In this document: positions 24,241 through 33,181 of the stretch, one piece after another
Layout of the letters: each line of letters begins with the position of its first letter
Position numbering within the stretch: the stretch's first letter is position 1
Assembly (NCBI RefSeq): GCF_900099965.1
Contig: NZ_FNDJ01000043.1
Span: 1-64,000, forward strand
Source: Nonomuraea jiangxiensis
Lineage (GTDB): Bacteria; Actinomycetota; Actinomycetes; Streptosporangiales; Streptosporangiaceae
Length of the DNA: 64,000 nucleotides
Direction: 5' to 3'
Notes under the pieces: generated by a model
The model's input: the letters and a program-made list of their open reading frames with translations, nothing else
Databases searched by the model: none
What the model was told of the DNA's origin: nothing
Translations under genes and position numbers: made by a program

Positions 24241-26001
24241 CTACAGCGGCCACGCTCGCAGTTCCTCTCGCACGGCATGGGCGATGCCCGGGCCGGTCAG
24301 CCCGGCCTCGGCGAGCAGCTCGGACCTGCCGCCCTGCGGGACGAACTCGCACGGCAGGCCGAGGTTGAGCACGCGCAGGCCGGGCGGGCAGACCTGCCTG
24401 AGCAGCGCCCCGGCCCCCGAGGCGGCCAGGCCGTCCTCGACCGTGACCACGAGCCCGCTGCCGCGGGCCAGCTCGCGCAGGTCGGACGAGACCGGGATCA
24501 CCCAGCGCGGGTCCACCACGGTCACGCCGAGGCCGGCGGCCGACAACATCGCCGCGGCCCCCAGGCACGGCTCGGCCATCGGGCCGACGGCCACCAGGAG
24601 CACGTCCTGGCCGGTGGAGGAGAGCACGTCCACATCGCCGGCGCGGCCCGTGGCGGCGATCTCCGCCTCGGCCGGCGCCTTGGGGAAGCGCAGCGCCGTG
24701 GGCCCGTCGTGCGCGACGGCCTCCTCCAGCAGCTCCCGCAGGCGTACGGCGTCGCGCGGCGCGGCCACCCGCATGCCCGGCACGACGGACAGCGCCGCCA
24801 GGTCCCACATGCCGTGGTGGCTGGGCCCGTCGGGCCCGGTGATCCCGGCCCGGTCGAGCACCAGCGTCACCGGCAGCCGGTGCAGCGCGATGTCCATCAG
24901 CACCTGGTCGAACGCCCGGTTGAGGAAGGTGGCGTAGATCGCGACCACGGGGTGCAGGCCGCTCATGGCCATGCCCGCGGCCGAGGCCATGGCCTGCTGC
25001 TCGGCGATGCCGACGTCGAACATGCGCTCGGGGAAGCGGCGGCCGAAGGCGGCCAGCCCGGTCGGCCCCGGCATGGCCGCGGTGATGGCGACCAGGTCGG
25101 GACGGCGCTCGCCGAGGAGGCACAGGTGCTGCGAGAACACGTGAGTCCAGGTGGTCGCGGCCGGTTTCAGCGGTTGCCCGGTCGCCGGGTCGGTGACCGG
25201 GATGGCGTGCAGGTGCTCGTCCAGGTCCTGCTCGGCGGGCTCGTAACCGCGCCCCTTGACGGTGACGCAGTGGACCACGACCGGCTCGCGCAGCTCCCGC
25301 GCCGCCCGCAGGGCCCGCTCCAGCGCGGGGATGTCGTGGCCGTCGACCGGGCCGAGGTAACGCAGCCCGAGCTGCTCGAACACGGTCACGTCCGCCGCGG
25401 CGGCGCGCAACCGCTCCAGGTGGTCGGCGCACGCGCCGAACGTGGCCGCGTAGGAGCGGCCGTTGTCGTTGAGCACCACGATGACGGGGTTGTCCTCGTG
25501 GTGCTTGGCCGCGCCCAGGTTGTTGAGGGCCTCCCAGGCCACCCCACCGGTGAGCGCGCCGTCGCCGACCACCGCCACCACCGGCCGGGGGTCGCCGCCC
25601 ACGAGGCGGCGGGCCTTGGCCATGCCGTCGGCGTAGGCCAGGGCGGTGGAGGCGTGGGAGCTGTCCAGGTGGTCGTGCGCGGACTCCTGCCGGCTGGGGT
25701 AGCCGCTGAGCCCGCCCCGGCGGCGCAGCTCGTCGAAGGCGCCGCGGCGCCCGGTGAGGATCTTGTGGACGTAGGCCTGGTGCCCGGTGTCGAACACGAT
25801 GGCGTCGCCGGGCGAGTCGAACACCCGGTGCAGCGCGATCGTCAGCTCCACGATGCCGAGGTTGGAACCCAGGTGGCCGCCGTTGGCGCTCACCTTGTCG
25901 ATCAGGAAGTCGCGGATCTCGCGGGCCAGCCCGGGGAGCAGCTCGGCAGGCAGGGCACGGAGGTCCTCCGGGGTCGAGACGTAGGGAAGCAGGCTCTTCA
26001 T
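24241..26001 (-). CDS. dxs: 1-deoxy-D-xylulose-5-phosphate synthase
   Basis: The 586-residue thiamine-diphosphate enzyme condenses pyruvate and glyceraldehyde 3-phosphate, the first step of the MEP isoprenoid pathway. It shows [18 protein letters not shown], the TPP-binding GDGALTGG (146-153) and the transketolase-type [15 protein letters not shown]. At 586 residues it is slightly shorter than usual DXS (~620-640). It is divergent from the polyprenyl synthase, IspH, encapsulin and geosmin synthase genes with a 124-bp shared promoter region. It is probably a dedicated second copy boosting precursor supply; a housekeeping copy elsewhere is expected but not visible here. Confidence 0.93.
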
Positions 26002-26060
26002 GGCATCCCCCTGACCTTGTGACTGCTGTGGCGGAACGAAACGCGAGCTACAAAAGACAC

Positions 26061-26090
26061 TTTACACACTCCGTATTCAATGAGTAACTA
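26061..26090 (+). promoter_or_regulatory. Candidate promoter of the geosmin/encapsulin operon
   Basis: TTTACA at 26061, an 18-bp spacer and TAACTA at 26085, about 35 bp before the ATG at 26126. It sits in the only AT-rich stretch of the dxs/polyprenyl-synthase divergent region. This is pattern-based only. Confidence 0.4.
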
Positions 26091-31004: not shown

Positions 31005-31006
31005 TC

Positions 31007-33181
31007 ATGTCCCAGCCGTTCGAACTGCCGGACTTCTACCTGCCGTACCCGGCCCGGCTCAACCCGCATCTCGAGGCGGCCCGCGTGCACTCCAGGCAGT
31101 GGGCCCGCGACATGGGCATGCTGGAGGGATCGGGGGTCTGGGAGGAGGCCGATCTCAACGCCCACGACTATGCGCTGTTGTGCGCCCACACCCATCCCGA
31201 CTGCGACGCCACCGAGTTGTGCCTGATCACCGACTGGTACGTGTGGGTGTTCTTCTTCGACGACCACTTTCTGGAGATCTTCAAGCGGACCGGCGACCTC
31301 GAAGGCGGCAAGGTCTACCTCGACCGGCTGGCCCAGTTCATGCCGATGGGTACTGACCTGGGCATGCCGGAGCCGACCAACCCGGTGGAGGCCGGCCTGG
31401 CGGACCTGTGGGTACGCACCGTCCCGAGCCGGTCGGCCGACTGGCGCGCGCGTTTCGCCGAGAGCACCCGTAACCTGCTGAACGAGTCGCTGTGGGAGCT
31501 GGCCAACATCAACCGGGGCCGGGTGGCCAACCCGGTCGAGTACATCGAGATGCGCCGCAAGGTCGGCGGGGCGCCCTGGTCGGCCGGGCTGATCGAGCAC
31601 GCGGTGGGGGCCGAGGTGCCCGCGCGGATCGCGGCCACCCGGCCGATGCGGGTGCTACGGGACACGTTCGCCGACGCGGTGCACCTGCGCAACGACCTGT
31701 TCTCCTACCAGCGGGAGGTCGCCGACGAGGGCGAGCTGAGCAACGGCGTGCTGGTGCTGGAGAAGTTCCTGGGGTGCGGCACGCAGGAGGCCGCCGACGC
31801 CGTCAACGACCTGCTGACCTCGCGGTTGCAGCAGTTCGAGCACACGGTGTTCACCGAGCTCGGGCCGCTGTTCGTGGAGCACGGGGTCGACGCGCTCAGC
31901 GCGGTGGGCGTGCTGGCCTACGTCAAGGGGCTGCAGGACTGGCAGGCGGGCGGGCACGCGTGGCACCTGCGCTCCAGCCGGTACATGAACAAGCGGGCCG
32001 GGGCCAGCCGGCCGCTGGGCGTGCCGGCGCTGGTCAACCTGCTGGGCGCCAAGCGGGTGCGCAACTTCACGCATGTGCCGTACGAGCGGGTGGGACCGGT
32101 CCACGTCCCGGAGCTGTACATGCCGTTCCCGCTCAGGTTGTCCCCGCACCTGGACGCCGCCCGGCGCTCCACGGTCGCCTGGTGCCGGGAGATGGGCATG
32201 CTGGAGGGACAGCCGGGGGTGGTGGGCTCGGTGATCTGGGACGAGGAGAAGCTGACCGACTTCGACCTCCCGCTCTGCGCCGCCGGCCTGCATCCCGACG
32301 CCAATCCTGAAGAGCTCGACCTGGCGTCGTTCTGGCTGGCCTGGGGGACCTACGCCGACGACTACTTCCCCGCCGTCCACGGCAGGACGGGCAACCTGCC
32401 CGGCGCGCGGATCGCGGTGGCCCGGTTGTCGGCGTTCATGCCGCTCGACGGCTCTCCCCCGCCGCAGCCCCTGAACGCGATCGAGCGTGGCCTGGCCGAC
32501 GTGTGGTCACGGACGGTCGGGCCGGTGCCGCTCGCGTTCCGGCGCAGGCTCCGCGCGGACGTGGAGACGATGGGCGAGGCGTGGCTGTGGGAGCTGGCCA
32601 ACAGGGTGGTCAACCACATCCCCGACCCCGTCGACTACCTGGAAATGGCCCGGCTGACCTCCGGCGGCGAGCTGTTGATCGACCTGTGCCGGCTGCGGCA
32701 CACCAAGGGGATCTCCGAGGAGCTTCGTCGCAGCGGGCCGATGCGGGCACTGGAGAGCGCGATCGCCGACTGCGGGGTGCTCGTCAACGACATCGTCTCC
32801 TACCAGAGGGAGATGGAGTTCGAGGGCGATCTGCACAACGGCATCCTGGTGGTACGCAGCTTCTTCGACTGCGACTACCCGGTGGCGCTCGGCATCGTCA
32901 ACGACCTGTTGACGTCGCGGATGCGGGAGTTCGAGCACATCGTGGCGAACGAACTGCCGATCCTGACCGCCGAGCTCGGCCTGGACGCCGAGGCCCGCAG
33001 GGCGCTCGACGGCTATCTGGACGAGCTGCGCAACTGGGTGGCGGGCATCGTCCACTGGCACCTTCATTGCTCCCGCTACGACGAGGAGTCGCTGCGCCGC
33101 CACTACCGGCCGCGGCCCGTGCCCCTACGCGGCCCGACCGGCCTCGGCACCTCGGCGTCGATCATCACGGCGAGCCGGTGA
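31007..33181 (+). CDS. geoA: Geosmin synthase (germacradienol/geosmin synthase)
   Basis: The 724-residue two-domain class I terpene synthase starts at the ATG at 31007, with GAAGGAG five bases upstream; GTG 31001 also possible. N-domain: DDHFLE (85-90) and NDLFSYQRE (229-237), converting FPP to germacradienol. C-domain: DDYFP (451-455) and NDIVSYQRE (594-602), forming geosmin. Motifs and length match Streptomyces geosmin synthase (726 residues). After the last helix is a short Gly/Pro-rich tail with GPTGLGTS (709-716), which may be an encapsulin-targeting element. It is the last gene of the operon. Confidence 0.95.

Follow-up and report, generated by a model that had tools for sequence, protein, structure and literature searches.

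A Nonomuraea gene unit that joins a geosmin synthase to two Family 2B encapsulin shells and extra isoprenoid precursor genes, and the compartment it may encode

Many soil actinomycetes produce geosmin, and work on its synthase has long treated it as a free enzyme. We describe here a unit of about 9 kb from Nonomuraea jiangxiensis that brings together a geosmin synthase gene (geoA) as putative cargo, two encapsulin shell genes and genes of isoprenoid precursor supply; it lies within the first 64,000 nucleotides of contig NZ_FNDJ01000043.1, the whole stretch that was analysed and that we call the window. The closest described systems are Family 2B operons, for which passages of PMC8346489 (Andreas and Giessen 2021) report geosmin-synthase-like cyclases as cargo, operons with two shells, a count of 165 terpene-cyclase plus prenyl-transferase clusters, prenyl-transferase systems that often encode precursor genes, and a GPTGLGTSA-type motif as candidate targeting sequence. 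A geoA-cnb-cnb cluster is described for Cyanobacteria and Deltaproteobacteria in part of PMC7251104 (2020), encapsulins within myxobacterial geosmin clusters appear in a passage of PMC12224551, and the sections of PMC12407261 on S. lydicus define VWK and RRRK as the motifs diagnostic of its shell types Enc1 and Enc2. Since geosmin synthase and Family 2B shells have been in print together since 2020 and 2021, the core of the unit is not new, and the suggestion of an earlier note, made from the sequence of the window, that the unit may be undescribed falls for that core. What is new relative to the literature searched is the attachment of supply genes, as neither encapsulins with dxs nor this unit in Nonomuraea was found there, a search to be read with the proviso that loci of this kind may be included in the supplementary operon tables of PMC8346489.

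The unit consists of dxs (1-deoxy-D-xylulose-5-phosphate synthase; 24241-26001, minus strand) followed on the plus strand by a prenyl diphosphate synthase gene (PT; 26126-27175, PF00348) of farnesyl type by similarity, ispH (4-hydroxy-3-methylbut-2-enyl diphosphate reductase; 27187-28128), Enc1 (28160-29569), Enc2 (29601-31004) and geoA (31001-33181), an order that the earlier note had given and that open reading frames, strands and families bear out. The divergent dxs and PT are separated by 124 bp, and the tight spacing also noted earlier holds: 11 bp between PT and ispH, 31 bp between ispH and Enc1, 31 bp between Enc1 and Enc2, and a 4-bp overlap of Enc2 with geoA if the latter starts at the GTG at 31001 (the ATG at 31007 would give a 2-bp gap). 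The products of dxs and ispH score 537.9 bits against TIGR00204 (cut-off 465.95) and 283.4 bits against TIGR00216 (cut-off 187.85), with NF002189 also above its cut-off for ispH. Elsewhere in the 11.8-Mb genome there are another dxs and two more ispH, one of them beside a hopene cyclase gene, so that dxs and ispH of the unit are extra copies, and the unit does carry precursor genes of its own; it also holds the only two-domain geosmin synthase of the genome. The recurrence of the order in related genomes argues that the arrangement is not chance.

Both shells (Enc1, P0004; Enc2, P0005) are full-length Family 2B proteins, as expected from the earlier note, with an HK97-type shell domain and an inserted cyclic-nucleotide-monophosphate (cNMP)-type domain (PF19307 and PF00027 in both) and scores of 767.0 and 714.5 bits against NF041163 (cut-off 400). 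They are adjacent and carry VWK (LLAVVWKDP in Enc1) and RRRK (LLCRRRKSR in Enc2), the pattern of a two-component Family 2B system, and their nearest solved relatives are 9bje for Enc1 and 9bix for Enc2, a similarity from which assembly into a closed shell is predicted.

We propose a model for this unit that, taken as a whole, we hold with considerable confidence: precursor supply leads to farnesyl diphosphate (FPP), which is used within a mixed Enc1/Enc2 shell that has GeoA inside. To judge by spacing and a conserved upstream block, PT, ispH, Enc1, Enc2 and geoA would be read as one transcript from a promoter just upstream of PT, with dxs transcribed divergently. By the known roles of their families, extra DXS would act at the entry of the methylerythritol phosphate (MEP) pathway and extra IspH at its last step, raising isopentenyl and dimethylallyl diphosphate, and PT would make FPP outside the shell. 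Enc1 and Enc2 would co-assemble into a mixed shell after the manner of the S. lydicus pair (PMC12407261, in the part concerned with it), and the C-terminal GPTGLGTSA tail, a motif that is present in GeoA and whose function is proposed in a passage of PMC8346489, would draw the enzyme in. FPP would enter through the pores and be converted to germacradienol and then to geosmin, and the volatile product would leave. In geosmin synthase the N-terminal domain makes germacradienol and the C-terminal domain geosmin, and a benefit of the compartment may be, for example, that the intermediate is held near the second domain. The supply genes would be optional in this scheme because the genome has other copies.

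GeoA has the features of a two-domain germacradienol/geosmin synthase: PF19086 matches in two stretches, marking two terpene-synthase domains, the predicted model shows two helical domains, and the first domain matches the S. coelicolor geosmin synthase structure 5dz2 in a fold search at 74% identity. The motifs DDHFLE and NDLFSYQRE of the first domain and DDYFP and NDIVSYQRE of the second, which we take to be metal-binding, are intact, and formation of geosmin from FPP is the predicted activity. An AlphaFold2 model from 27 sequences (mean predicted local distance difference test score 86.4) falls below 50 over at least three residues at 1-3, 330-355 and 709-726, and GPTGLGTSA occupies residues 711-719 (codons 33131-33157, plus strand), within the last of these and so in one of two long disordered segments. 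The motif named in the consulted part of PMC8346489 is thus placed in a disordered terminus, as for geosmin-type Family 2B cyclase cargo, which supports the earlier note in naming this enzyme the likely, still putative, cargo. An interdomain copy of the motif was found neither in GeoA of the window nor in the 30 Nonomuraea rows displayed.

The association of synthase and shell extends well beyond the unit. In a sample of 150 genomes of the GTDB family, with geosmin synthase matches taken at E 1e-60, a Family 2B shell match is present in 96/97 synthase-bearing genomes (95/96 without the single-domain match G096) vs 8/53 synthase-free genomes, five of the eight have 2-methylisoborneol (2-MIB) synthase, and at genus level a shell match accompanies geosmin synthase in each of the 41 genera that have it. 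These counts include judgements on partial matches: G019, G032, G036 and G126, with matches to the shell core only (positions from about 226), were scored as not Family 2B; kept, though partly seen, were G006 (two pieces, two contigs), G090 (two pieces), G052, G113 and G129 (C-terminal part only, 67-81% identical to Enc1, the last two near a contig end) and the synthase-free G051 and G063. By the cut-off of the shell model alone, the count is 102/150 genomes. Hopene cyclase, taken as control trait, has no association with the shell (35/56 genomes with it, 69/94 without it; p 0.20), a control that leaves the effect of kinship in place. In a phylum sample of 398 genomes the synthase occurs in 26, all of which have a full-length shell, and seven of the 372 others have a match, five to the shell core only; 23 of the 26 belong to one genus and are therefore not independent.

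If geoA is called linked where a shell match lies no more than 6 kb away, 41 genomes are linked and 55 are not; of the latter, 54 have their shell elsewhere, some on the contig of geoA at a distance of about 12-105 kb and others much further away or on a different contig. In the family sample, with its 97 geoA loci, the tail motif (at most 2 of 9 mismatches, anywhere) is found in 41/41 linked and 55/56 unlinked enzymes, and in the C-terminal region in 31/41 and 47/56, vs 1/1120 shuffled tails. Across 52 unlinked tails, selected for a match with no more than 3 mismatches (a choice that itself favours motif conservation), columns 2-9 of the motif hold 3.0-4.3 bits, compared with 1.9 in the first column and 0.9-1.6 in the ten columns before it. 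The co-presence of the shell even when the genes lie apart, together with the retention of the motif in unlinked enzymes, suggests loading in trans. A broader proposal, that actinobacterial geosmin synthase is in general a client of encapsulins, housed in Family 2B shells even if the shell genes are elsewhere, tail-loaded in trans and in some lineages equipped with a dedicated dxs-ispG-ispH-FPP supply, we advance tentatively and regard as rather doubtful at this breadth. The possibility that a 2-MIB synthase accounts for the shell where geoA is unlinked was also considered and rejected, that enzyme being above cut-off in only 20/150 genomes and absent from 45 of the 54 shell genomes with unlinked geoA.

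It might instead be that shell genes and geoA are merely co-regulated neighbours, the true cargo being PT or another protein, with GeoA free in the cytosol and its tail motif serving something else, an explanation that we consider unlikely. In its favour, GeoA is said to make geosmin in vitro without a shell, in work by Cane and co-workers; G148 retains the tail motif and no Family 2B shell was found in it, and in a Streptomyces-like genus 15/23 geoA are without the C-terminal motif despite shells. PT systems are, moreover, common in Family 2B according to the part of PMC8346489 that treats them. The PT of the window, however, does not resemble such cargo, for which a score above 450 bits against NF041169 is combined with a disordered N-terminal domain of 50-100 residues: it scores 276.1 bits, it has no disordered N-terminal extension, the conserved GGKR starting at residue 48, and its nearest solved relative is the (2E,6E)-farnesyl diphosphate synthase 8f8f (E 7.8e-61), followed by 3lk5, named geranylgeranyl pyrophosphate synthase (E 1.1e-54). 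On these grounds PT as a classical encapsulin cargo is unsupported, and PT is more likely a supply enzyme outside the shell, with FPP as its predicted product. The published motif is present in GeoA, and in unlinked enzymes it is conserved while the rest of the tail is little conserved; both points speak against this rival.

The locus itself was followed through relatives of PT, the closest of which, in an alignment-based scan of named genomes, belong to Nonomuraea. Of the 229 relatives found, the best 80 were examined; as they were selected by PT, its presence is not evidence in what follows. Seventy-two of these loci are from Streptosporangiaceae, with a shell near PT in 71 (the exception, L256, is at a contig end) and geoA in 68; of the four loci without geoA, three are truncated at a contig end and the fourth, L249, is not. 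In the remaining eight (PT 48-53% identity) the fetched stretch, short in several cases, showed no shell and no two-domain geosmin synthase. With the window added, and L199, L251 and L256 (contig ends) and L261 (an identical copy in the same genome) dropped, a set of 69 loci is obtained, of which 68 have geoA. The unit with geoA is found in nine genera (Nonomuraea, Microtetraspora, Planotetraspora, Sinosporangium, Sphaerisporangium, Sphaerimonospora, Planomonospora, Thermoactinospora and Microbispora) as PT-(ispH)-Enc1-(Enc2)-geoA or PT-(ispH)-Enc1-geoA-Enc2, the main Nonomuraea group having Enc1-Enc2-geoA or Enc1-geoA and the other genera and a few outlying Nonomuraea Enc1-geoA-Enc2. The core of the unit is PT, Enc1 and geoA, and conservation of the order outside the strain, on which the earlier note had staked its reading, holds for this core across the nine genera and fails for dxs (12/69 loci).

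A second shell is present in 60/69 loci, L249, with two shells and no geoA, being scored as without. A first tree split the Enc2 of Nonomuraea from the Enc2 that other genera carry downstream of geoA; holding these groups together was not rejected (approximately unbiased test, p 0.635), the constrained tree had the higher likelihood, and the claim of an independent origin was therefore dropped. Three loci are worth recording beside these. In L175 (G221, another class of the phylum, one shell) the order on one strand is ispH-geoA-Enc1-PT-dxs; its PT, at 429.3 bits against a cut-off of 450, is of the cargo type, and an AfsA-type (A-factor synthesis) gene lies beside the locus (L175:14484-15656). 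In L249 (Nonomuraea sediminis), a second PT-Enc locus, the shell is divergent and a single-domain terpene-synthase-like match replaces geoA. L191 (G303, another class of the phylum) has a Family 2B pair with PT, ispH and ispG, without geosmin synthase.

The supply genes are patchy, dxs being present in 12/69 loci, ispG in 13/69 (three partial or broken) and ispH in 33/69 (window included). These minorities, or about half of the loci in the case of ispH, would fit an explanation by which the precursor genes are not particularly connected with geosmin and sit there by chance in a paralogue-rich genome. We think this improbable, as the copies are specific to the operon. The window dxs is 53% identical to the other dxs of its genome; operon dxs form one group (13 rows, SH-like approximate likelihood ratio test, SH-aLRT, 99) and operon ispH another (35 rows, SH-aLRT 95) in quick trees rooted by choice on another copy of the genome, and these groups are common to several species, that of ispH spanning genera too. 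The dxs-PT spacing is near constant in the main Nonomuraea group, and ispH and dxs also accompany geoA and the shell in L175, outside the class. Where dxs is present in the named loci, ispG follows it in 11/12 (in two frames in L248; L260 and L261 are identical copies from one genome); ispG is partial in L206 and L242 and near-full without dxs in L213, and at the locus of the window, where dxs is present, no ispG was found. Short ispH-like pieces occur in L251, which is cut before any geoA, and L262. Minimum changes on the best PT tree are at least seven for dxs, seven for ispG and nine for ispH, counts that do not separate gain from loss; the remnant, partial or broken ispH or ispG copies beside geosmin-encapsulin genes (L262, L251, L206, L242, L248) favour loss. 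On these comparisons operon-specific dxs, ispG and ispH make up a patchily distributed supply module, joined by a farnesyl-type synthase without the cargo extension. The dedicated MEP flux proposed earlier is conjectural, the presence of the three genes varying from one relative to the next.

Two further observations concern these genes. On the PT tree dxs and ispH are co-retained in five pairs on starred branches and never opposed, and five pairs are too few for co-retention to be called significant. The ispH of the window has one TTA codon (28012-28014), and a TTA at residue 274-276 is common to 15/34 full-length named operon ispH; in matched stretches TTA occurs in 0/138 shells and 1/68 geoA. 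Control of the bldA type is possible for this supply gene.

Upstream of PT, alignment of 25 sequences shows a conserved promoter-like block with diverging flanks (CTTTACAC ... TAACTA; 26060-26090, plus strand). CTTTACAC with TAACT 25 bp further on occurs in 35/72 PT loci, these being 35 of the 36 main-group Nonomuraea loci (exception L223), at 64-82 bp before PT and in loci with or without dxs; a ribosome-binding-site-like GAAGGAG lies at about 26111. A sigma-70 consensus scan of 25800-34000 found no promoter, and the block came from the alignment instead. After dxs and on its strand are a Zn alcohol dehydrogenase and an epimerase gene (21853-24191), with which a GeoA-like cyclase might make some other sesquiterpenoid or a non-volatile product, the more so as such genes are enriched in Family 2B terpenoid operons (PMC8346489, in the passages on these operons). 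This we regard as very improbable. Whether or not dxs is present, the two genes adjoin the unit in most Nonomuraea loci of the main group, and outside that group neither was found in the fetched stretches, except for one 29% alcohol-dehydrogenase-like match in L249; being largely confined to the main group and independent of dxs, they look like local chromosome neighbours, and the comparison of neighbourhoods across loci led us to reject them as members of the unit. The presumed metal-binding motifs of both cyclase domains, being intact, likewise speak against it. An RsbA-type anti-sigma ATPase gene and a STAS anti-sigma-antagonist domain flank the unit (21172-21843 and 33195-33539, minus strand), with matches in 30 and 35, respectively, of the 36 main-group loci. 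Two small proteins that resemble each other (33908-34219 and 35407-35754, minus strand) have a signal-like start, match no Pfam or NCBIfam family and lie near the unit in many Nonomuraea.

Several results weigh against the model of an encapsulated GeoA with its own supply. GeoA scores 1112.8 bits over nearly its full length against the encapsulated-cyclase model NF041168, below the cut-off of 1200, four relatives scoring 1163.6, 1185.7, 1206.6 and 1079.3, and PT falls short of its cargo model as given above. Among 67 complete geoA of the PT-selected loci (the truncated geoA of L215 left out; at most 2 of 8 mismatches) the motif is C-terminal in 59, interdomain in 15, at both places in nine and at neither in two, leaving eight without the C-terminal copy. 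In the Streptomyces-like genus (g70) the C-terminal motif (at most 1 of 9 mismatches) is found in 8/23 geoA, the other 15 having at best 3 mismatches and ten of these an interdomain GTSAADV-type form, which speaks against a universal rule. The second shell is absent from 8/69 loci and is therefore not essential, and dxs, which forms the end of the unit that varies, is missing in most relatives and may accordingly play a minor part.

If geosmin synthase is a normal shell client, the reason for the compartment, be it retention of an intermediate, volatility, membrane toxicity or timing with sporulation, becomes a direct experimental question. The Nonomuraea unit provides a compact test system, and its relatives form a natural series, ranging from one shell to two and from no MEP genes to three, that allows each part to be tested separately.

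The locus can be compared first with a second encapsulin system of the same genome (L058, C22:637500-657000), which holds one Family 2B shell (the third of the genome), a 2-MIB synthase with GPTGLG near its N-terminus, and a methyltransferase-like frame named from sequence and not by model match. It resembles the geosmin unit in its Family 2B shell and in a cyclase with GPTGLG, placed N-terminally there, and differs in its single shell, its methyltransferase-like frame and a product that is by similarity monoterpenoid. The geoA-cnb-cnb cluster of PMC7251104 likewise pairs geosmin synthase with two shell-like cNMP-domain proteins of about 470 aa, and the myxobacterial clusters of PMC12224551 share encapsulins in a geosmin context; in the former geoA comes first, and the passages concerned of neither paper mention precursor genes. 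With the S. lydicus two-component shell the unit shares adjacent Enc1 and Enc2 with VWK and RRRK, and that system supplies its nearest solved structures, although the relevant part of PMC12407261 treats it as of the xylulose-kinase type; in the terpene-cyclase/prenyl-transferase type of the same source the cyclase can sit between the shells with PT downstream, whereas here PT comes first and geoA last. The operons in the consulted part of PMC8346489 have in common with the unit one or more Family 2B shells, a two-domain cyclase and the C-terminal motif, and the unit departs from them in having no interdomain copy of the motif, a PT of another subfamily without the extension, and attached dxs and ispH. 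These attached supply genes, together with signs of a near-constant pairing of synthase and shell, make the unit a testable variant of a known shell-enzyme pairing.

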